Source of the DNA: a virus
IMG/VR virus record: IMGVR_UViG_3300032092_000139
Span: 1 to 32,605 of that record
Reading direction: 5' to 3' (one strand)
Length of the DNA: 32,605 nt
Below, piece by piece: positions 741 through 25,840 of the stretch. Under the pieces are notes generated by a model. The model was not told where the DNA came from, ran no database searches, and was given only the letters and a program-made list of their open reading frames with translations. Position numbers and translations under genes: made by a program. Positions within the stretch are counted from its first letter, which is position 1, and the number at the start of each line of letters is the position of its first letter.

Positions 741-749
741 GATATATAG
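741..749 (+). promoter_or_regulatory. putative late promoter GATATATAG (copy 1)
   Basis: The nonamer GATATATAG lies between the topoisomerase stop and the first capsid-targeted small gene, 12 bases before its ATG. Identical nonamers occur at 13309, 14892 and 30635, each in front of a structural gene. No conserved -35 element is apparent. It resembles the T4 late promoter (TATAAATA, -10 only). Use by the gp55-type sigma encoded at 17050 is inferred. Confidence 0.6.
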
Positions 750-761
750 AAGGTAAAAATA

Positions 762-1088
762 ATGAAAGGAATGAAACACGTAAAAACATTCGAAAGCTTC
801 ATCAGCGATTCAATGAGCGAAGCGGTTAAGTACAACCCAAAGCCGTTTGACCAAGTAAAACCTGGCAACACTGCTTTTGTATACGGAGATGACAATGCAT
901 GGCAAGTGGTTGACACTGCTGTAGGAAAAGACTTTGACAAGAAGTTAAAGAAATACGATCAATCCGGTGTGGCTGATGAGTTGAAGAATGATTCAGACTG
1001 GGACGCGATGGAGCTCATCGCAGTTAAGCACAATTCTGAAGTTGCCGTGTACACATACGGAGAAGACGGTGCTTGGGTAAACAAATAA
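762..1088 (+). CDS. small protein with capsid-targeting-like N-terminus (candidate internal head protein)
   Basis: This is a 108-residue protein. After MKG it begins MKHVKTFESFISDS, matching the pattern at the start of two neighbours (1452 and 1810) and closely resembling the T4 internal-protein capsid-targeting sequence MKTYQEFIAE, which the gp21 prohead protease removes after (I/L)-x-E. Here the cleavage triad would be ISD, or MSE four residues later, so processing is less certain than for the neighbours. The remaining ~95 residues are charged, with no recognised domain. ATG 771 is an alternative start that would put MKHV at the exact N-terminus. The gene follows a late-type promoter motif. 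The inferred role is packaging into the capsid and possibly injection with DNA; the molecular function is unknown. Confidence 0.7.
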   Translation: MKGMKHVKTFESFISDSMSEAVKYNPKPFDQVKPGNTAFVYGDDNAWQVVDTAVGKDFDKKLKKYDQSGVADELKNDSDWDAMELIAVKHNSEVAVYTYGEDGAWVNK

Positions 1089-1095
1089 AAAGCAA

Positions 1096-1455
1096 ATGGA
1101 AAAGGAACTCTTAAATAACGTGCTACAAATCCAGGCACAATTGCGAGTACTGCACTGGCAAACTGAAAGCTACGCAGAACACAATGCGTTCGGTATGACA
1201 TACGATACGCTGGATGAGCTGTTTGATGATTTGATCGAAGTTTATAGCGGAAAATACAGTCGTCCAAAATTTGGTGGCATGAAGCAGATTGCGGTTGCCG
1301 ATATCGACAATATCAAGGTGGAACCTTTTATTGATGGTTTAATGGACTTTTTCTCTAATGCATTCATTGCAGATGGTGATAGCGAATTGAAGAACATTTG
1401 CGACGAGATCAAAAGCGCACTTGGTAAACTGAAATACTTGTTGACTTTGAAATGA
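1096..1455 (+). CDS. Dps/ferritin-like small protein (DUF5856-like)
   Basis: This is a 119-residue, largely helical protein. Residues 19-50 carry LHWQTESYAEHNAFG followed by DTLDELFDDLIEVY. That pattern of His20-Trp, His29, Asp37/Asp40, Glu41 and Glu48 resembles the metal-binding helices of Dps and ferritin-like proteins, though the spacing is not the classical Dps ferroxidase spacing. I recall similar proteins from T4-like marine phages annotated as DUF5856, but could not check this. It lacks the MKHV-type N-terminus of its neighbours and overlaps the next gene by 4 bases (ATGA), so the two are probably translationally coupled. It may bind iron or another metal, or DNA; none of these is proven by the sequence. 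Confidence 0.65.
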   Translation: MEKELLNNVLQIQAQLRVLHWQTESYAEHNAFGMTYDTLDELFDDLIEVYSGKYSRPKFGGMKQIAVADIDNIKVEPFIDGLMDFFSNAFIADGDSELKNICDEIKSALGKLKYLLTLK

Positions 1456-1790
1456 AGCACGTACACACATACGAAAGCTTTCTTGCCGAATCACATTACG
1501 CTTTTCTTGGCGGGAATTCCAATTTCACTGATGATGAAATGCGCAAAAACGTAGTGGACAAAGTCTTAGGCAAAAACTATGATGCCTACATTATGTTCGA
1601 CGACAGCGCTCCAAAAGGTGAATACGACAAAATGAAAGCCAAGTACGCTTCCGATGCAGATAAATGGGAAGTCATTTGGCAATCTCAATCGTATCAAGGC
1701 GAAGCGCGGCTTTCACCCGACAAAAAAGTTATCAAAGCCACGGTGTTTGGTAAAGGTGGAATCATTGGTGCTATCTACGTTAAAAAGTAA
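1452..1790 (+). CDS. small protein with capsid-targeting-like N-terminus (candidate internal head protein)
   Basis: This 112-residue protein starts MKHVHTYESFLAES, the closest of the three to the T4 internal-protein leader MKTYQEFIAE. LAE is a canonical (L/I)-x-E site for the T4-type prohead protease, predicting a mature protein that starts at Ser14. The body is a small mixed alpha/beta domain with DKMKAKYASDADKWEVIW in the middle and a glycine-rich strand GKGGIIGAIYVKK at the end; no family is recognised. The start overlaps the stop of the Dps-like gene (ATGA), indicating co-translation. The inferred fate is packaging in the head as an internal protein, with unknown activity after injection. 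Confidence 0.75.
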   Translation: MKHVHTYESFLAESHYAFLGGNSNFTDDEMRKNVVDKVLGKNYDAYIMFDDSAPKGEYDKMKAKYASDADKWEVIWQSQSYQGEARLSPDKKVIKATVFGKGGIIGAIYVKK

Positions 1791-1809
1791 AATGAGCCTA
1801 GAGAAAACA

Positions 1810-2067
1810 ATGAAGCACGTAGCTAACTACATAGAATTTCTTTACGAAGGCAAAAAGCAATATCGATATTTGCTAAAAGTTGAGAAAGACTTCAACACGT
1901 TTAATCTTTTGAACGACCTCAAGCCTCTTGGAGCTGAGGTACTTGACAATCAGCCTGACGGAAAGTCAAAAGATCACATAGTGATCACCGTTGTTATGGA
2001 TGATTCCAAACGAACGCAGGTGGAAGAAACAATAAGAAACACGGCAGAGATTATTAAGAATCTGTAG
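1810..2067 (+). CDS. small protein with capsid-targeting-like N-terminus (candidate internal head protein)
   Basis: I place the start at ATG 1810 because it gives MKHVANYIEFLYEGKK, aligned with the leaders of the two preceding small genes. ATG 1792, 1 base after the previous stop, is in frame and would add six residues (MSLEKT). LYE followed by Gly is a canonical gp21-type cleavage site. The predicted mature part is about 70 residues, with a ferredoxin-like beta-alpha pattern (YRYLLKVEKDF then HIVITVVMDDSKRTQVEETIR); no family is recognised. It is the last gene of the cluster, and a terminator begins 8 bases after the stop. Confidence 0.7.
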   Translation: MKHVANYIEFLYEGKKQYRYLLKVEKDFNTFNLLNDLKPLGAEVLDNQPDGKSKDHIVITVVMDDSKRTQVEETIRNTAEIIKNL

Positions 2068-2074
2068 AAACTGG

Positions 2075-2097
2075 GGCTATTAACAATAGCCTTTTTT
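2075..2097 (+). terminator. intrinsic terminator
   Basis: A perfect 7-bp stem GGCTATT/AATAGCC with loop AAC is followed by six T residues. It closes the small late cluster and separates it from the outer-membrane protein unit. Confidence 0.85.
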
Positions 2098-2909: not shown

Positions 2910-4307
2910 ATGGCAAAAAAGATCTACAACTTACCCATATCAAAGCAGATTAACACTAACTTTAGAAATTACGCTCTGTATGTATTGGAAAATCGAGGCA
3001 TCCCATCTTTTTACGATGGGTTGACTAATGTTCAAAGATTCATTTTAGTCAACGCGCCTTCCAATTTCAACAAAACAATTTCGGTAGTTGGATCCTGCAT
3101 TTCTGATGGTTATCACCACGGCGACAAATCTCTAACAGGAGCCGTCAACAAATTAGCTCGCCCTTTTGGTTGCTCAGAGCAGCTGCTTCTTGGTGATGGA
3201 TTCTTTGGAACTCCAGTTCAGCAAGAACCATCAGCTGCTCGTTATACATCGGTAAAGATTGCTCCGGGCATTTCGGAAACGATTCGAAAGAACTCTTTCC
3301 TTAACACACGTAACGATGAAACTGGTTGGGATCCACTTTGGATCGATTTGCCAATAGGTCTTACTACAACCATTATTGGTATTGCGGTAGGTTACAAAAC
3401 CACGGTTCTTCCAAGAAGTCTAACCGATGTCCAAAAGTTCTTGGATGGAAAGATCACCGAAGTAAAGCCGGTGTTTAAAGGCTTTAATGGCAAAATCACT
3501 CGCTATCAAGGTCTCAATAAATCTTGGTTGATTGAAGGCGTGGTAGAAAAGAATGATTCCGAAAGATGGATGCGAGTTACTGAGCTGCCACCTCTGATGA
3601 AGTACGGTTCTTTCCTGAAGAAGCTTGATTCAATTATGAATTACCATCCAGGAGTAAAGGTAACTAACAATTCTTCTACAAATGTAGATATCTTACTTCG
3701 ATACTCTGGCGACCTTGATGGCTGGAATGCATTTTCCGATGCTATCCACAAAGGAACAAAGATGTTGGTAACAGAGACTCCGGTATTTGTGAAGGACGGA
3801 TTGGTGCTGGAATACGACAGAATTGAGGACTATATCACAGACTTCAAATATCGCCGTGCTCAACTTCGAGTAAAGCGTGCTGAACACTTCTTGCAAGAGG
3901 CCAACGATGAATTGGAATTTATGCGATGTAAGGAAAAGTACTTAATGTACATGTTGGAAAAGCAGAGGAAGGAAGCCGAGGTAGATAAGTTCCTTGACAC
4001 AGTAACCTCTAATTCACGGGTGAAGCGTCGTTTGGAATCCATCTACCTGAAGTCTTTAAATGCGCAAGAACTTGAACGCACACGTAAAGAAATCAAGAGA
4101 CTTGAAGACTTGCAGGCAGCAGAAACCAAAGAACTGCATAATGCCCAGGTAGAATTTGAACTTATGGTAGATACCTCCATTGCTCGTGGAACTATGAGTA
4201 AGTCGTCTACAACTAATCTGTTTGAAGATGAAGGCGAGATTGACGGTATTGAACTCTGGGATGGAGATCTTGAAACTGAAGAAACAGAAACAACAAACGA
4301 AGAATAA
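2910..4307 (+). CDS. 52: DNA topoisomerase II medium subunit
   Basis: This 465-residue protein (T4 gp52 is of similar size) is the GyrA/ParC-type breakage-reunion subunit. The winged-helix core is visible as YHHGDKSLTGAVNKLARPF around residues 68-86, GDGFFGTP near 96-102 and SAARYTSVK, where Tyr112 is the expected active-site tyrosine that forms the covalent link to DNA. A long coiled coil rich in Lys/Glu/Arg spans about residues 325-425, as expected for the tower/coiled-coil arm, and the tail is very acidic. It partners with the TOPRIM subunit at the left edge of the window, although the two are separated by the internal-protein cluster and the beta-barrel unit. The leader is A-rich (TAAAATAAA before ATG). 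It overlaps the next gene as TAATG. Confidence 0.95.
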   Translation: MAKKIYNLPISKQINTNFRNYALYVLENRGIPSFYDGLTNVQRFILVNAPSNFNKTISVVGSCISDGYHHGDKSLTGAVNKLARPFGCSEQLLLGDGFFGTPVQQEPSAARYTSVKIAPGISETIRKNSFLNTRNDETGWDPLWIDLPIGLTTTIIGIAVGYKTTVLPRSLTDVQKFLDGKITEVKPVFKGFNGKITRYQGLNKSWLIEGVVEKNDSERWMRVTELPPLMKYGSFLKKLDSIMNYHPGVKVTNNSSTNVDILLRYSGDLDGWNAFSDAIHKGTKMLVTETPVFVKDGLVLEYDRIEDYITDFKYRRAQLRVKRAEHFLQEANDELEFMRCKEKYLMYMLEKQRKEAEVDKFLDTVTSNSRVKRRLESIYLKSLNAQELERTRKEIKRLEDLQAAETKELHNAQVEFELMVDTSIARGTMSKSSTTNLFEDEGEIDGIELWDGDLETEETETTNEE

Positions 4308-4708
4308 TGAAAGGAAGAATCACGTCATCGAAAGAAACGTCTACAGGTAATCTGTCAGATCACCAGGTAAAGTTCATGCGAGAGATCAATCTCAACCCGA
4401 CCTTTGACCGAAAGACCAAGCCATGGAAGCTTGTTAAAATTCCAAAATCAACAACAAGAAACGTAGCCTGGCACATTGCAGTAAACGACCGCAAATTTAT
4501 TGCTGTTCAATACTATGCCAAAGGTGAAGGCGTTGCCATCTATGACACCGATGAAAAGTTTCGGGCTTTTAAGCCAACCGATTTGGTAAAGAACTACCCT
4601 TCATATGTAGATTTAGAAGTGGCTATCGACGAGTTTTACAATGAACAATATGGATCAAATGAACAAAGAGACACAGAATCAGAACCCAGCACGGAACTCC
4701 AAGCGTAA
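4307..4708 (+). CDS. conserved-looking hypothetical protein in the replication operon
   Basis: This 133-residue protein is not recognised. The N-terminal ~30 residues are polar and basic (MKGRITSSKETS). The middle has beta-rich segments (WHIAVNDRKFIAVQYYAKGEGVAIYD), and the last 25 residues are acidic and disordered. It starts within the gp52 stop (TAATG), so its translation is probably coupled to the topoisomerase. Its end overlaps the ClpP-like gene by 50-68 bases. No transmembrane segment or signal peptide is seen. Confidence 0.7.
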   Translation: MKGRITSSKETSTGNLSDHQVKFMREINLNPTFDRKTKPWKLVKIPKSTTRNVAWHIAVNDRKFIAVQYYAKGEGVAIYDTDEKFRAFKPTDLVKNYPSYVDLEVAIDEFYNEQYGSNEQRDTESEPSTELQA

Positions 4709-5279
4709 TGAAGACTTCTTCATTGGAAATCCATTGATCTCTGCCCACGGAGATCACATCTACTTTTATGCGCCAGTGAGTCCAGAGTCTGCTCTAGAAC
4801 TCAATCAAAAATTGCACCAGGCTTCTATGCAAAATCTGGCTGGCGTCTTCAACAGCATGTATGAAGTCAACTCACCACCACCGATTTGGTTGCACATCAA
4901 TTCCTATGGCGGAGAACTCTTCTCGGCTTTTGCAATTGCTGATACTATTGAACGGATCAAAACAACCGTTCCAGTAGTTACCATTGTGGAAGGCTGCGCA
5001 GCATCTGCAGCCACTGTTATTTCAACAGCAGGTACACGAAGACTTATGCGTAAGAATGCATATATGCTTATTCATGAGCTAAGCGATTCCTCATGGGGAC
5101 GCTTTACTGAGCTACAGGATAACTACAAGAGCAATGAGGATATCATGAAAACTATGAAAGAATGGTATCTTGACCGCACCAAAATCAAGCCCGATAAATT
5201 GGACGAGATTTTGAAGCACGACATTTGGTGGAATTCCGCTCTATGCCGCAAGAACGGCCTGGTTGATGACATCATCTAA
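4641..5279 (+). CDS. ClpP-like serine protease
   Basis: The frame encodes 212 residues from ATG 4641; ATG 4650 and ATG 4659 are also possible starts, and all lie inside the preceding gene. The fold is that of ClpP: IWLHINSYGGELFSAFAIAD corresponds to the oxyanion-hole Gly-Gly strand and helix. EGCAASAATVIS carries the nucleophile Ser122 in the AAS context, YMLIHELS carries His145, and KHDIWWNSALCRKNGLVDDII matches the ClpP C-terminal block with Asp194 as the third triad member. The triad appears complete. The polar N-terminus of about 25 residues precedes the core. ClpP-type enzymes in phages are often head-maturation proteases, but this gene lies between gp52 and the sliding clamp, in the replication block. 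An AAA+ unfoldase partner was not found in the window. Confidence 0.88.
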   Translation: MNNMDQMNKETQNQNPARNSKRNEDFFIGNPLISAHGDHIYFYAPVSPESALELNQKLHQASMQNLAGVFNSMYEVNSPPPIWLHINSYGGELFSAFAIADTIERIKTTVPVVTIVEGCAASAATVISTAGTRRLMRKNAYMLIHELSDSSWGRFTELQDNYKSNEDIMKTMKEWYLDRTKIKPDKLDEILKHDIWWNSALCRKNGLVDDII

Positions 5280-18734: not shown

Positions 18735-20339
18735 ATGGCAGGTTTCATTGACAGAGTGGGTGTGAACCCTATATTTGGTCAAATATCAAAAAGCTTAAAG
18801 ACGCTGTCGTCTCTCGGAATGAAGTACGAGGACATGGTAGTTAAGCAATCGAGAGCAGTCGGTGTGACCGAAGCTGAATTTGGTCTTCAAGGTTACCTAC
18901 CTGAAGAATTCTTATATTCATTAGCGCTAACTGACGTTGGCCAAAAGAAGTTTATTGCGTTCTTCGACAAAGACTACAAGTCTCGTCGAGACTACTTGAG
19001 AAAGTTTTCGATGAACCCGGAAATTGAGTTTATCCTTGATACTGTTTCCGATGAAGCAATAGTCTACGATGACTCAAACTACTTTGCTGAAGTTGACACT
19101 ACCCTGCTTAAAGGAATACTCGACCCTGATCATTCTAAAGAGATTGTGGATGAAATTGGAACAGCTTTCCGTAAGATATACGCTCACTTTCACTTCAATG
19201 AAGGTCACGATGCTTGGGGATATTTCCGCCAACTGCTGATTGATGGATTCCTTGCCTTTGAAATCATTTATGATCCTGAAGGAAAGAACATCATTGGTTT
19301 TAAAGAGCTGGATGCAACTTCTCTTCGTCCAGGCGTGGAAAAATCTGGCGACAACGTGTATCGCAAAATTTGGGTACAGTACGAAGACATTCCTGCAATG
19401 AAACGAGTCCTCCTCGATTCGCAGATCATCTACATATCATATGCCAAAGGTAACTTTACCGGTCGCGTATCATACACGGAAAGATTGGTAAGAAGCTTCA
19501 ACCTCTTGCGTATCATGGAAAACAGCCGAGTTATTTGGAACATCATGAACTCAAGCTTCCGCTTGAAAATGGTGGTACCAATTGGAACCAAGTCTCCACA
19601 AAAAGCAAAGGAAAGCTTGGCGGAGATGATGGCAATCTATAAAGAAGATGTATCTCTAAACTATGATTCTGGTGAGCTGACTGTAAACGGTAAGCCTGCA
19701 ATGCAGTTCTACAAAAACTACCTTTTCCCTTCAAAGAATGGCGAACAGCCTGAAATTGAAACTATCGGAGGTGATGGCTACGATCTAAGCGATACCGATG
19801 CACTAAAATACTTTGAAGACAAATTAAAAGTGGATTCAAAGATACCATTCTCCCGTTTTGATCGTACACAAGACGGTGGCTCCTTTAGTATCAGCTCTGA
19901 TGGAATGGCTCGCGACGAAATTCGTTTTGCTCGCTTTATCAACCGCTTGAGATCAATGTTCCAAGAGATCTTAATCAAGCCAGTATTCTTGCAAATCGGT
20001 CTTAATCACCCGGATCTTGCTGAAGACGAACTGTTCAAGTCTGCTCTTGCATTGAAATTCCGTTCTGACAATCTGTTTGAAGAAATGAAGGAAATGGAAG
20101 TGATGGACAAGAGAGCAAGCATCATACAGACTATGATGGGAATCAATGAAAAAGTTCCAGATTCAACAGGTATGTTACAGGATGTTCCGTACTTTGATCC
20201 AAAGTTCCTCATTGAAAAGTACTTAGGTCTTACCAAAATTGAGATGGATCGAAATGCTGGCTATAAAGAGGAAACGCAGATTAAGAACGATGCAATCATG
20301 AAAGCCGCTCAACAAGCGTCGGGCATGGGAGGCATTTAA
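18735..20339 (+). CDS. 20: portal vertex protein
   Basis: This 534-residue protein (T4 gp20 is 524) is the dodecameric portal at the special head vertex, through which DNA is packaged and to which the tail joins. Recognisable features are SMNPEIEFILDTVSDEAIVYD near 95-115, the stem/clip region with ERLVRSFNLLRIMENSRVIW, then FPSKNGEQPEIETIGGDGYD followed by LKYFEDKLKVDSKIPFSRF. That last block matches the segment of T4-type portals reading GG.GxxL.xxxDxxYFxxKLxxxLxVPxSRL. The C-terminal part is helical. The leader is A-rich (AAAACAACAAAAGC before ATG). The family is secure. Confidence 0.93.
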   Translation: MAGFIDRVGVNPIFGQISKSLKTLSSLGMKYEDMVVKQSRAVGVTEAEFGLQGYLPEEFLYSLALTDVGQKKFIAFFDKDYKSRRDYLRKFSMNPEIEFILDTVSDEAIVYDDSNYFAEVDTTLLKGILDPDHSKEIVDEIGTAFRKIYAHFHFNEGHDAWGYFRQLLIDGFLAFEIIYDPEGKNIIGFKELDATSLRPGVEKSGDNVYRKIWVQYEDIPAMKRVLLDSQIIYISYAKGNFTGRVSYTERLVRSFNLLRIMENSRVIWNIMNSSFRLKMVVPIGTKSPQKAKESLAEMMAIYKEDVSLNYDSGELTVNGKPAMQFYKNYLFPSKNGEQPEIETIGGDGYDLSDTDALKYFEDKLKVDSKIPFSRFDRTQDGGSFSISSDGMARDEIRFARFINRLRSMFQEILIKPVFLQIGLNHPDLAEDELFKSALALKFRSDNLFEEMKEMEVMDKRASIIQTMMGINEKVPDSTGMLQDVPYFDPKFLIEKYLGLTKIEMDRNAGYKEETQIKNDAIMKAAQQASGMGGI

Positions 20340-20811: not shown

Positions 20812-23800
20812 ATGCCGTTAATCACAAGAGAGTATGGTCCCAATGCAAAAGGAAGTAAGCTCACCATTCGCGAAATGGATGACAACCTTCTGTATTTGCA
20901 AGCGCTAGCGCAGGCCGGAACCGCAGGAACATCAGGATCTTCAGGAACATCAGGTTCTTCAGGAACCAGCGGAACTTCGGGTTCTTCCGGAACCTCGGGA
21001 TCTTCAGGAACATCAGGATCTTCAGGAACATCAGGTTCTTCAGGAACTTCGGGGTTTAGCGGTGACAAGTACTTTACAACTTCGTCAACGCTTCTCTCAA
21101 TAGGCACAGGCACCAAGTCTCTAGTAGTCGACCCGGATCTTGCATATTCTGTTGTACAAGCAATATACGTATCTTATGACCCTGCAAATTTCATGCAAGG
21201 TCAAGTTCTGAGTTATGATTCAATAACAGGACAGCTCGTAGTAGATATAACCTCAAGCACCGGTTTTGGAAACTTTAGCGCTTGGACAGTAAACCTGGAC
21301 GGTGCATCCGGTGGTAACGGATCATCCGGAACTAGTGGAAGCAGCGGAACAGATGGAACATCAGGAACTAGTGGAACTGATGGAACTTCAGGAAGCTCGG
21401 GAACGAGCGGAACGGATGGAACCAGCGGTACAGATGGAACTAGTGGAACTGACGGAACTTCAGGAAGCTCGGGAACTAGCGGAACTGACGGAACGAGCGG
21501 AAGCTCGGGTTCTTCGGGAACGTCAGGAATTGATGGATCCAGCGGAACTTCTGGAATTGATGGAACAAGTGGAACGTCGGGAATTGATGGAACTTCCGGC
21601 ACTAGTGGCTCGAGTGGAACTGACGGAACCAGCGGAACTGATGGAACGAGCGGAAGCTCAGGTTCTTCGGGAACCTCGGGAATTGATGGATCCAGCGGAA
21701 CTAGTGGAATTGACGGTTCTTCAGGAACCTCGGGAATTGATGGAACCAGCGGAACCTCGGGAATTGATGGAACCTCTGGCACTAGTGGATCGAATGGAAC
21801 TGACGGAACATCTGGATCATCTGGGACTGATGGCACTTCGGGATCTAGCGGCTCAAGCGGTACTGATGGAACCAGCGGTTCTAGCGGCTCAAGCGGAACC
21901 AGCGGCTCAAACGGTACTGATGGTACTTCAGGAACTGACGGTACTTCGGGAACCAGTGGATCAAGTGGAACTGATGGAACCAGCGGTTCTAGTGGCTCAA
22001 GCGGAACCAGTGGCTCAAACGGTACTGACGGAACCAGTGGCTCAAACGGTACTGATGGAACCAGCGGTTCAAGCGGTAGCTCTGGCTCTAGTGGTACTTC
22101 AGGAGATGACGGAACTAGTGGTACAAGCGGAAATGACGGATCTTCCGGAACCAGCGGTACAGACGGAACCAGTGGAACTGACGGAACTTCAGGAAGCTCG
22201 GGCTCTTCAGGCTCTAGCGGAACATCAGGTTCAAGCGGAACCAGTGGAAGCTCTGGCTCTTCGGGATCGAGTGGATCTTCCGGAACTAGTGGATCTAGTG
22301 GAAGCTCAGGTTCATCAGGAACAAGTGGAAGCTCTGGATTCTCTGGTTCTAGCGGAAGCTCTGGTTCGTCAGGAACAAGTGGAAGCAGCGGAACAGATGG
22401 TACTAGCGGAAGCAGTGGAAGCTCTGGCTCATCGGGCACAAACGGCTCTTCAGGAACCAGTGGTTCTAGTGGAAGCTCAGGTTCATCAGGAACGAGCGGA
22501 AGCAATGGAACCAGCGGTTCTAGTGGAAGCAACGGAACAAGCGGTACAGACGGAACCAGTGGAAGCAGCGGAAGTTCTGGCTCTTCGGGTACAAATGGAT
22601 CTTCGGGATCTAGCGGTTCATCCGGGTCGAGCGGTACATCTGGGTCGAGTGGTTCATCCGGGTCAAGCGGTACAAGCGGAAGCTCCGGATTCTCCGGTTC
22701 TAGCGGATCATCAGGAACATCAGGTTCTAGTGGATCTAGCGGAAGTAGCGGAACTTCAGGGTCTGGAACAAGTGGAAGCTCTGGCTCTTCAGGATCAAGT
22801 GGATCGAGTGGAACTTCTGGTATTGATGGATCAAGTGGAAGCTCGGGAACGAGCGGAAGCAATGGAACCAGTGGTTCTAGTGGAACCGACGGAACAAGCG
22901 GTACAGACGGAACCAGTGGAACAGACGGAACAAGTGGATCTAGCGGATCAAGCGGAAGCTCTGGTTCTTCAGGAACTAGTGGAATTGATGGATCTTCAGG
23001 AACTAGTGGAGTTGATGGATCTAGTGGAAGTTCGGGAACTAGCGGAATCAATGGAACTTCAGGTTCTAGCGGCTCAAGCGGCTCAAGCGGTACCAGTGGT
23101 TCTAGCGGATCTTCAGGAACTAGTGGTTCAAGTGGAACCAGCGGAAGTAGTGGAACCAGCGGATCAAGCGGAAGTTCAGGGACTAGTGGATTAAACGGAA
23201 CTAGTGGTTCAAGTGGAACCAGCGGATCAAGCGGAAGTTCAGGAACTAGTGGTTCAAGTGGAAGCTCGGGAACCAGCGGTTCAAGTGGAACTAGTGGATC
23301 AAGCGGCACAAGCGGAACTCGTGGAAGCTCGGGAACGAGTGGAAGCTCGGGAACGAGTGGAAGCTCGGGAACAAGTGGAAGCTCGGGAACGAGTGGTAAT
23401 AACGGAACAAGCGGAAGCTCGGGAACTAGCGGAATCAATGGAACTAGCGGATCTAGCGGCTCAAGTGGCACCAGCGGCTCAAGCGGCTCAAGCGGCACAA
23501 GTGGGATAGGAACTCATGGTACTTCAGGGTCTTCAGGTACCTCGGGTTCTGGAACCAGCGGAAGCTCAGGAACCAGCGGTTCAAGCGGTTCAAGTGGAAC
23601 TAGTGGATCAAGCGGAAGTTCGGGAACTAGTGGTTCAAGTGGAAGCTCGGGAACCAGCGGTTCAAGTGGTTCAAGCGGTTCAAGTGGAACAAGTGGTTCA
23701 AGTGGAACAAGCGGAACCAGCGGTTCAAGTGGAACAAGCGGAACTAGAGGAACTAGTGGATCTAGCGGAACCTCAGGTCTTGCGGGCACCTCCGGTTCAA

Positions 23801-24771
23801 GTGGAACTAGCGGTTCTTCAGGTTCCAGCGGATCGTCAGGAACCTCGGGTTCTAGCGGATCTAGCGGAAGTAGCGGAACATCCGGATCTTCAGGAACTAG
23901 CGGATCTAGTGGCTCAAGTGGAACCAGCGGAGTTTCCGGCGATCCTGGCGATCCAGGAACTAGTGGTTCTTCAGGAACTAGTGGAACGACTGGCTCTTCT
24001 GGTACTAGTGGATCTTCAGGCACTAGTGGATCTAGTGGAAGCAGCGGAACCAGCGGCGTAAATGGAGCCAACGGTACAAGTGGAAGCAGCGGAACCAGCG
24101 GAACTCGTGGTTCGAGCGGAACTAGTGGATCTAGCGGAAGCAGCGGAACCAGCGGATCTGGAACTAGCGGAAGCTCTGGAACCAGCGGATCTGGAACTAG
24201 CGGAAGCAGTGGTACTGCTGGAAGCTCTGGTACCGCCGGAAGCTCTGGAACCAGCGGTTCTAGTGGAACACGTGGAACTAGCGGATCCAGTGGATCTTCA
24301 GGAACTTCAGGGATACTTGCAATTAACAACAATACTAACAACAGATTATTAACCGCAACAGGAACATCCGGTGTTATTGAAGCAGAAGCAAACGTAACAT
24401 ATGACGGAACTGACTTTACGATTAGCGGAAACTTGAGAGTTACCGGAAACGCTGTAGTCAACATAGAAACAGAAACAACAACAGCTGCAGGAAATAATGC
24501 GGTCAGCTTTAGCGGTGGAAACGTTTTACAGTTTGTCCTTGGAGGAAACACCACATTCCTTGCACCTACTGGAACTGTGACCGGCGGGGTTTACATAATC
24601 TGTGTTCGGCAAAGCCCAAGCACAACATATACCGTTACCTGGAACGCAACGTACCTTTGGCCTGGAGGCACAGCGCCTACGCAAACAGCCACACTTAATC
24701 GGGTGGACGTTTACACGTTTGTAAGCACAGCAAATGGCCTGGTGGGAATGTACTCACAAAATTACGGATAA
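20812..24771 (+). CDS. giant Gly-X-Y repeat fibre protein
   Basis: This 1319-residue protein belongs to the late structural block. Residues 1-38 (with SKLTIREMDDNLLYLQALAQ) resemble N-terminal attachment segments of T4-like structural proteins. A short repeat tract runs to about residue 82. A globular insert at about 83-164 (KYFTTSSTLLSIGTGTKSL to FSAWTVNL) is of a type I associate with phage fibres that carry collagen-like tracts. Then come about 1000 residues of Gly-X-Y triplets built almost only from GTS, GSS, GTD, GID and GSN. The last ~155 residues form a C-terminal domain containing NVTYDGTDFTISGNLRVTG and a jelly-roll-like end, probably a trimerisation or receptor-binding head. A long side or tail fibre is the likely role. 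Open frames on both strands across this region are repeat shadows. Confidence 0.85.
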   Translation: MPLITREYGPNAKGSKLTIREMDDNLLYLQALAQAGTAGTSGSSGTSGSSGTSGTSGSSGTSGSSGTSGSSGTSGSSGTSGFSGDKYFTTSSTLLSIGTGTKSLVVDPDLAYSVVQAIYVSYDPANFMQGQVLSYDSITGQLVVDITSSTGFGNFSAWTVNLDGASGGNGSSGTSGSSGTDGTSGTSGTDGTSGSSGTSGTDGTSGTDGTSGTDGTSGSSGTSGTDGTSGSSGSSGTSGIDGSSGTSGIDGTSGTSGIDGTSGTSGSSGTDGTSGTDGTSGSSGSSGTSGIDGSSGTSGIDGSSGTSGIDGTSGTSGIDGTSGTSGSNGTDGTSGSSGTDGTSGSSGSSGTDGTSGSSGSSGTSGSNGTDGTSGTDGTSGTSGSSGTDGTSGSSGSSGTSGSNGTDGTSGSNGTDGTSGSSGSSGSSGTSGDDGTSGTSGNDGSSGTSGTDGTSGTDGTSGSSGSSGSSGTSGSSGTSGSSGSSGSSGSSGTSGSSGSSGSSGTSGSSGFSGSSGSSGSSGTSGSSGTDGTSGSSGSSGSSGTNGSSGTSGSSGSSGSSGTSGSNGTSGSSGSNGTSGTDGTSGSSGSSGSSGTNGSSGSSGSSGSSGTSGSSGSSGSSGTSGSSGFSGSSGSSGTSGSSGSSGSSGTSGSGTSGSSGSSGSSGSSGTSGIDGSSGSSGTSGSNGTSGSSGTDGTSGTDGTSGTDGTSGSSGSSGSSGSSGTSGIDGSSGTSGVDGSSGSSGTSGINGTSGSSGSSGSSGTSGSSGSSGTSGSSGTSGSSGTSGSSGSSGTSGLNGTSGSSGTSGSSGSSGTSGSSGSSGTSGSSGTSGSSGTSGTRGSSGTSGSSGTSGSSGTSGSSGTSGNNGTSGSSGTSGINGTSGSSGSSGTSGSSGSSGTSGIGTHGTSGSSGTSGSGTSGSSGTSGSSGSSGTSGSSGSSGTSGSSGSSGTSGSSGSSGSSGTSGSSGTSGTSGSSGTSGTRGTSGSSGTSGLAGTSGSSGTSGSSGSSGSSGTSGSSGSSGSSGTSGSSGTSGSSGSSGTSGVSGDPGDPGTSGSSGTSGTTGSSGTSGSSGTSGSSGSSGTSGVNGANGTSGSSGTSGTRGSSGTSGSSGSSGTSGSGTSGSSGTSGSGTSGSSGTAGSSGTAGSSGTSGSSGTRGTSGSSGSSGTSGILAINNNTNNRLLTATGTSGVIEAEANVTYDGTDFTISGNLRVTGNAVVNIETETTTAAGNNAVSFSGGNVLQFVLGGNTTFLAPTGTVTGGVYIICVRQSPSTTYTVTWNATYLWPGGTAPTQTATLNRVDVYTFVSTANGLVGMYSQNYG
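21311..24312 (+). repeat. 3-kb coding tract of degenerate 9-nt (Gly-X-Y) repeats
   Basis: A nine-base unit GGN-(ACN/TCN/AGY/GAY)-(TCN/AGY/GAY) is repeated roughly 330 times, mostly as GTS-GSS pairs. Synonymous codons are thoroughly mixed: Gly as GGA, GGT, GGC and GGG, and Ser from both AGY and TCN families. The protein repeat is therefore much more regular than the DNA repeat. Two-residue interruptions (G-S or G-I in place of a triplet) occur at 22759, 23503, 23545, 24154 and 24187. Proline is nearly absent; the exception is one GDPGDPG patch near 23938. Confidence 0.92.
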
Positions 24772-24772
24772 T

Positions 24773-25489
24773 ATGATAGTTTACCCTGCATCTTTTTTAG
24801 GAGGCTCTCTGTGGAGTTTTAGCACCCAGACACTAAGCTGGCCTTCTTCTACCGCTGGCTATACTCAACTGACCGGTGGTATTGTAAGCAATTTATATAC
24901 TAACAGTTGGACAAACACCAGCGCTTTCCTTGGTTTCCAATTTGCGATGGCGGCGTCAACCACCAGCCAGTCGACGTCGTTTGGTATTCGAATATCCACA
25001 AACGGTCAGTTTAAAATAAGCGCTGGGGCAGTGGATCTTACTAATGATAAGCCAAGCATTCCTTCCGGTGGCACACAGCCTTTATACTATGGAAATGCAG
25101 GGGGTCCTACGGGGATTGCTCCAGTCAATAGTCTTCAGCCAGGATCTCTTCTCGCAGACGGAGATACGCAAAACGTCTGGTATAGATCTGGTTCTGTTGG
25201 TCAAAAATACTATGCTGACATAATAGTCTATTCAGGTATTGACGGAGTCCCTTCGGGAGTATCTTCTTACATGTTTAGCTTATATAAAGATCCGGGTTTC
25301 CAATGGATGGTAACTCGCACTAAAACCACTCCTAATTCTACATTTGCTGGTCCATATAATCCTACAACAGATGTGTCGCAGCCGGCTTCTACCACAAGTC
25401 AAGTTTGGAGAGCTGGAAGAGATGTCAATTCTGGCGGCACCGTATTTTATTACAATTGGCAGTATGTAGGTACAGGCAGCGTAGTCTAG
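24773..25489 (+). CDS. probable fibre-associated or virion surface protein
   Basis: This is 238 residues from ATG 24773, 1 base after the fibre stop; the frame also reads upstream into the fibre gene, but the clean ATG at the junction is preferred. The protein is rich in Ser, Thr, Gly and aromatic residues, with many short predicted strands (SFLGGSLWSFSTQTLSW, FGIRISTNGQFKISAGAV, GTVFYYNWQYVGTGSVV), typical of beta-structured fibre tips or adhesins. No signal peptide is seen. The position after the fibre, like T4 gp38 after gp37, suggests an adhesin or fibre partner; this is inference from order and composition. A terminator follows 18 bases after the stop. Confidence 0.7.
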   Translation: MIVYPASFLGGSLWSFSTQTLSWPSSTAGYTQLTGGIVSNLYTNSWTNTSAFLGFQFAMAASTTSQSTSFGIRISTNGQFKISAGAVDLTNDKPSIPSGGTQPLYYGNAGGPTGIAPVNSLQPGSLLADGDTQNVWYRSGSVGQKYYADIIVYSGIDGVPSGVSSYMFSLYKDPGFQWMVTRTKTTPNSTFAGPYNPTTDVSQPASTTSQVWRAGRDVNSGGTVFYYNWQYVGTGSVV

Positions 25490-25507
25490 ATGTTAATAAC
25501 TATCGGT

Positions 25508-25534
25508 CCCGAGATTTTTTTCTCGGGTTTTTTT
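25508..25534 (+). terminator. intrinsic terminator ending the structural block
   Basis: A perfect 7-bp stem CCCGAGA/TCTCGGG with a six-T loop is followed by seven T residues. It separates the late structural block from the second early/middle block. Confidence 0.93.
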
Positions 25535-25567
25535 GTATTATTTTTATACTATTAAAATTTAACCGAT

Positions 25568-25840
25568 ATGGAAACACCCAGATTTGACCGTCACAAACAC
25601 ATGGATTCCGATACTTGTAAACGAATCCAAGATCTTATCACGGATCTTATAATCATTGAAAACTGCAATTCAAATCAGGTTGTCAATATGCTTTATGGAG
25701 CATTCGATGGTTATGATTATTCACAACAAATCCTACAGCATGAATTGCTTACTCAACTTGAGGATAGCGGTAATGGCCACATAGCAAATGACATTGTGGA
25801 TCTTGCGTACATCATTAGTAATACATACCCAAAACTATAA
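25568..25840 (+). CDS. small hypothetical protein
   Basis: This 90-residue protein is not recognised. It is acidic and mostly helical (CKRIQDLITDLIIIENC, then NGHIANDIVDLAYIISN). It is the first gene after the strong terminator at 25508, so it needs its own promoter. The AT-rich gap 25535-25567 contains TATACTATTAAAAT but no clear copy of the AAACT/TGAATATA motif. It is followed after 3 bases by the next gene. Confidence 0.6.
   Translation: METPRFDRHKHMDSDTCKRIQDLITDLIIIENCNSNQVVNMLYGAFDGYDYSQQILQHELLTQLEDSGNGHIANDIVDLAYIISNTYPKL

Follow-up and report, generated by a model that had tools for sequence, protein, structure and literature searches.

A probable extended form of the T4 capsid-targeting sequence on unrelated small proteins of a lineage related to huge phages

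Why should three small phage genes, whose products have unrelated bodies, open with a shared N-terminal leader? The genes lie in a 32,605-base fragment of a viral contig (hereafter the window, G000 in our numbering), between the topoisomerase genes 39 (154-735) and 52 (2910-4307). Their starts are at 771, 1452 and 1810, all on the + strand. ORF1 (771..1088, 105 aa) carries the leader MKHVKTFESFISD, ORF3 (1452..1790, 112 aa) the leader MKHVHTYESFLAE and ORF4 (1810..2067, 85 aa) the leader MKHVANYIEFLYE. Just after ORF4, a stem-loop followed by a T run (2075..2097, + strand) reads in the sequence as the likely terminator of the leader operon. The sequence-only reading of this locus had described three neighbouring short ORFs with such leaders on unrelated bodies. 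The three leader genes are there as described, but the interval holds four ORFs: a 119-aa DUF5856 / PHROG 858 protein (1096..1455, + strand), encoded between ORF1 and ORF3, lacks the leader, which makes it a built-in negative control. We also had to move one gene start. ORF1 had been begun at 762 with the residues MKG; in the related contig G001, whose orthologue of ORF1 is 94% identical, that upstream ATG reads ATC (AATCAAAGGAATGAAACAT), so the prefix is not conserved and the start is at 771. For ORF4 the start was set at 1810 because its orthologues align from there, a 137-aa frame from 1654 being merely the longest open frame.

The leaders recall the internal proteins of phage T4, IPI, IPII and IPIII, which reportedly share a capsid-targeting sequence described by Mullaney and Black in 1996. 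Inspection of the T4 record confirmed the earlier statement that T4 internal proteins start MKTYQEFIAE, in this case for IPII and IPIII, and showed that residues 59-65 of gp23 read FGSFLTE, within the stretch AFGSFLTE that precedes the maturation point. T4 gp23 loses a propeptide of 65 residues, and in IPIII residues 4 and 7 determine targeting and residues 8 and 10 processing, an Asp at position 10 blocking processing while targeting stays intact (PMC9026906). These four IPIII positions map to leader positions 7, 10, 11 and 13. The leaders and the T4 proteins share the MK start and the core [FY]xxF[IL]xE, of T4-type propeptide spacing and ending in the Glu of the cut site (ORF1, with Asp13, deviates), as well as small unrelated bodies under one leader, a gp21-type protease in the lineage and variable gene content. 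They differ in length, the T4 leader having 10 residues and ours mainly 13, with three extra residues ahead of the core; in number, a contig here having between one and two dozen tagged genes against three in T4 and at least ten reported in T-even phages; and in the bodies, which are basic in T4 and here are not generally so (the median pI of the mature proteins is 5.5), some of them matching enzyme families. Forms of 10 residues also occur in the lineage, for example MKSFKEFLNE.

The frequency of such starts was assessed by counting ORFs that begin with M[KQ][1-4 residues][FY]xx[FYH][VIL]x[ED] and by taking the expectation from shuffled N-termini. In the window, two ORFs of the non-overlapping set match, plus the ORF at 1452, where 0.16 are expected. 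The sequence-only reading had proposed a search of the rest of the genome for further leader starts; here the count was extended to three closely related contigs, G001 (202 kb), G002 (101 kb) and G003 (143 kb). We found 13 starts in G001, 16 in G003 (15 when a start inside the scaffold gene is excluded) and 23 in G002, against 0.3, 0.3 and 0.1 expected, respectively. The DNA pattern read backwards as a control gave 0-1 matches, and the 13-residue pattern had no match in Lak-A1 or T4. By blastp, 53 leader proteins fall into 36 unrelated body families; in their alignment Met1 never varies, and at least 90% of them keep Lys2 and Glu13. Seven of the G002 leader genes form an array within 2.3 kb (30290-32628), mostly adjacent to one another and with mutually unrelated bodies.

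A shared start could also arise without any protein function, as a trace left in the DNA when sequences recombined or genes were duplicated. The DNA of the three window leaders is indeed identical at 21-29 of 39 bases, as compared with only 16-22 of the 60 bases upstream, and from this difference leaders may have spread by copying. Third codon positions vary, however, while residues 2, 7, 10, 11 and 13 keep their class, and synonymous variation at fixed residues indicates selection on the protein. Together with the protein-level bias at residue 14 described below, this makes a purely DNA-level origin of the shared start extremely improbable.

To avoid circularity in the analysis of the cleavage site, we assembled 131 distinct leader proteins chosen by residues 1-11 only. 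Glu13 is present in 116 of them (89%; background 7%) and is followed by Gly, Ala or Ser in 79 of these 116 (68%; background after Glu 18%), figures whose p-values are too small and overstate the case because the leaders are not phylogenetically independent. In the window the small residue is Ser in ORF3 and Gly in ORF4, for both of which we predict a cut after Glu13, leaving mature parts of 99 aa (pI 8.7) and 72 aa, respectively. ORF1 is the exception. Cleavage at residue 13, as it might be read from the leader, is not expected there, since this residue is Asp and the IPIII data indicate that Asp would block processing (PMC9026906). Its later stretch reads FISDSMSE-A, and the cut is therefore probably made after SMSE, that is after Glu17, which is followed by Ala. 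Several proteins without Glu13 show displaced cut-like sites of this kind (ISDSMSE-A, VVSLSE-G, ITNSLNE-A and VQDLNE-S).

Which protease would make this cut? Neither gp21, gp22 nor gp23 is encoded within the window fragment; its closest relative, G001, ends inside gp23, and neither of the two reaches gp21. The window does encode, 2.6 kb downstream of the cluster (4641-5279), a ClpP-like enzyme with kinship to head maturation proteases. With gp21 missing from the window, one may suppose that this enzyme cuts the leader, or that the leader is a tag for another site such as the membrane or a replication compartment. We regard this supposition as very unlikely, given that a gp21-type protease, whose presence had been named as a check on the head-protein reading, was found in the relatives, and that the leader core corresponds both to a gp21-linked scaffold repeat and to the maturation-site sequence of T4 gp23. 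The G003 protease has E = 1e-12 to T4 gp21, with which it shares the S77 protease domain and the GEL[ND]HP motif; all six phage records searched match, and in three the score exceeds the curated cut-off.

In G003 the gp21 protease and the scaffold form one polypeptide (L059:17095-18987), and the same holds for loci L128-L148. Such single chains of ~540-640 aa (up to 811 aa in huge phages) are unlike the separate gp21 and gp22 of T4, although most of their protease domains keep the GEL[DN]HP motif of T4 gp21. Their scaffold contains a repeat, mostly of 14 residues, Yxx[YH][LIV][AG]E, which T4 gp22 lacks and which matches the leader core. The G003 fusion has ten core motifs, mostly 14 residues apart; in that contig the motif is met 28 times outside leaders, so that this one protein accounts for ten of them. 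Across 16 fusions examined we counted 5-11 core motifs each against ~0.1 expected, and the huge phages LR756501, 502 and 504 have the same arrangement with about ten or more. In the scaffold the motif Glu is mostly followed by Lys, Asn or Gln, not by the Gly, Ala or Ser of the leaders. For this reason we do not take the repeats as proof of a cut at every one of them; they may be structural only, and the leader looks like one scaffold unit plus a cut site. One highly acidic leader protein (G003 101621-102211; G001 173752-174303) has a second, internal motif, FESFL[AS]E, and is perhaps the counterpart of the T4 core proteins gp67/gp68.

Head targeting plus cleavage in the prohead, as first proposed from the window sequence, is well supported by the agreement of the leader core, Glu13 with its small following residue, the displaced sites, gp21 in the relatives and the scaffold repeat. 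We think it highly probable that ORF1, ORF3 and ORF4 are internal head proteins of a T4-type phage, with a leader propeptide, a gp21-type cut, packaging and most likely injection. Points against this reading are the lack of gp21, gp22 and gp23 in the window fragment, the different residue after the scaffold motif, the mature proteins that are not generally basic, and the lack of a match to the 13-residue pattern in Lak-A1 and T4. The first 13 residues would form a propeptide for capsid targeting, in which a short amphipathic helix with Phe/Tyr7, Phe/Tyr10 and Ile/Leu/Val11 may enter the prohead core by mimicking one unit of the scaffold's 14-residue repeat. A gp21-type protease would then cut after Glu13, or after Glu17 in ORF1, and the mature body would stay in the head beside the DNA, most likely to be injected at infection. 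Co-assembly, cleavage and packaging are proposed here by analogy with T4, in which Ip1, Ip2 and Ip3 are injected and each inhibit a different type IV restriction system (PMC12373910). On the same analogy injection of the leader proteins is likely, but both it and a host-directed function are suggested with less certainty than packaging. Since the T4 proteins each block a different restriction system, head-tagged proteins are prime anti-defence candidates. The match between tag and scaffold repeat offers a simple, testable reason for the tag to direct proteins into the prohead.

What the leaders may carry is less uniform than the leaders themselves. None of the three window bodies has a convincing domain match in Pfam, PHROGs or NCBIfam, and tblastn of two of them against annotated phages returned nothing credible. 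The structure prediction of ORF3 was poor (mean pLDDT 61) and was set aside. In the AlphaFold model of ORF4 the leader forms a helix of low confidence and the mature part is ferredoxin-like (mean pLDDT 83), with no Foldseek match below E = 0.01; the fold being generic and without a match, we assign it no function. Among the leader-tagged proteins, a dozen or more per contig, nearly all are without a known family. Enzyme-like bodies among them are (i) a cytidylyltransferase, matched by Pfam CTP_transf_like at E = 1.7e-6 and in NCBIfam by models that include NMN adenylyltransferases, (ii) an ATP-grasp protein whose match lies below the curated cut-off, (iii) a PAP2 protein (E = 1.4e-8) and (iv) an unassigned protein in which a nucleotidyltransferase-like GSxxxx...DxD stretch was seen by eye. 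In all three close relatives the cytidylyltransferase bears the leader; its homologues from Stenotrophomonas phage Moby and Xanthomonas phage X1 do not, and that of LR756500 is extended at the N-terminus by another sequence. An ADP-ribosyltransferase suspected in G003 (25193-25723) from a YHYT stretch was dropped because Pfam finds none.

These bodies bear on whether the leader proteins are cargo at all. They might instead be components of the prohead core that serve head building and are not injected, as could be argued from the resemblance of the leader to the scaffold repeat, from the core-like look of the acidic leader protein with its internal FESFL[AS]E, and from the head-assembly defects of T4 IPIII mutants (PMC9026906). 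We find this unlikely, because 36 body families, content that varies between close relatives and enzyme-like bodies suit exchangeable cargo better. Gene content at the leader site between genes 39 and 52 varies among the window, G001, G002 and G003, and the orthologues of ORF3 (84-90% identical) lie at a different locus in G001 and G002, as expected of exchangeable cargo. Tentatively, with chances not quite even, we propose that, by means of a transferable scaffold-like leader, these phages fill the head with a large, exchangeable set of ready-made effectors that are delivered at infection. In the window and the three related contigs this set would comprise at least 36 families, among them the cytidylyltransferase-like protein (possibly an NMN adenylyltransferase) and the ATP-grasp, PAP2 and nucleotidyltransferase-like proteins. 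Large phages that pack many proteins together with the genome are known from the inner-body and ejection proteins of phiKZ and SPN3US, and in SPN3US the prohead protease reportedly cleaves some of the packed proteins (PMC5694885, PMC10052503). Our comparison with these phages is by literature only, and the short leader of the present lineage belongs to the T4 type.

The portal gene of the window (18735-20339) places it closest to uncultured phages of 462-735 kb and to the Prevotella Lak phages of ~540 kb, with 49% identity to LR756500. G001 and G002 track most of the window in gene order, and G003 its first 9 kb, after which the contig ends. The leader is an extended form of the T4 capsid-targeting sequence, with a larger cargo, in a lineage related to Lak and other huge phages; searches of the open-access literature turned up no account of it from huge or Lak-type phages. 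In uncultured large phages, one 13-residue signature would provide a readable list of probable injected candidates.

The sequence-only reading had seen a late promoter motif in front of the cluster, and the candidate gained support. GATATATAG lies at 741..749 on the + strand, upstream of ORF1. It occurs four times in the window (741, 13309, 14892 and 30635; 0.6 expected), always on the + strand and 15-35 nt before an ORF, and 20, 16 and 11 times in G001, G003 and G002 against 3.9, 2.6 and 1.3 expected. Almost all copies stand on the coding strand, most of them no more than 40 nt ahead of a start. Genes that follow a copy in the relatives include the gp21-scaffold fusion, the acidic core-like protein and several further leader operons. 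From this distribution the motif is probably the late promoter of the lineage, and at 741..749 it would serve the leader operon.

Some neighbouring genes deserve mention. Downstream of the stem-loop, the ORF at 2161-2799 encodes an outer-membrane-barrel-like, apparently secreted protein with a signal-peptide-like start; it has no family in Pfam or PHROG and is flanked by two terminator-like sites, which is odd for a phage replication region. For the ClpP-like protease, the best matches in PHROG are to head maturation proteases; gp21 is present in this phage lineage as well. Finally, 20812-24771 encodes a 1319-aa GTSGSSG repeat protein, probably a fibre, whose repeats create long spurious frames on the opposite strand and in another frame.
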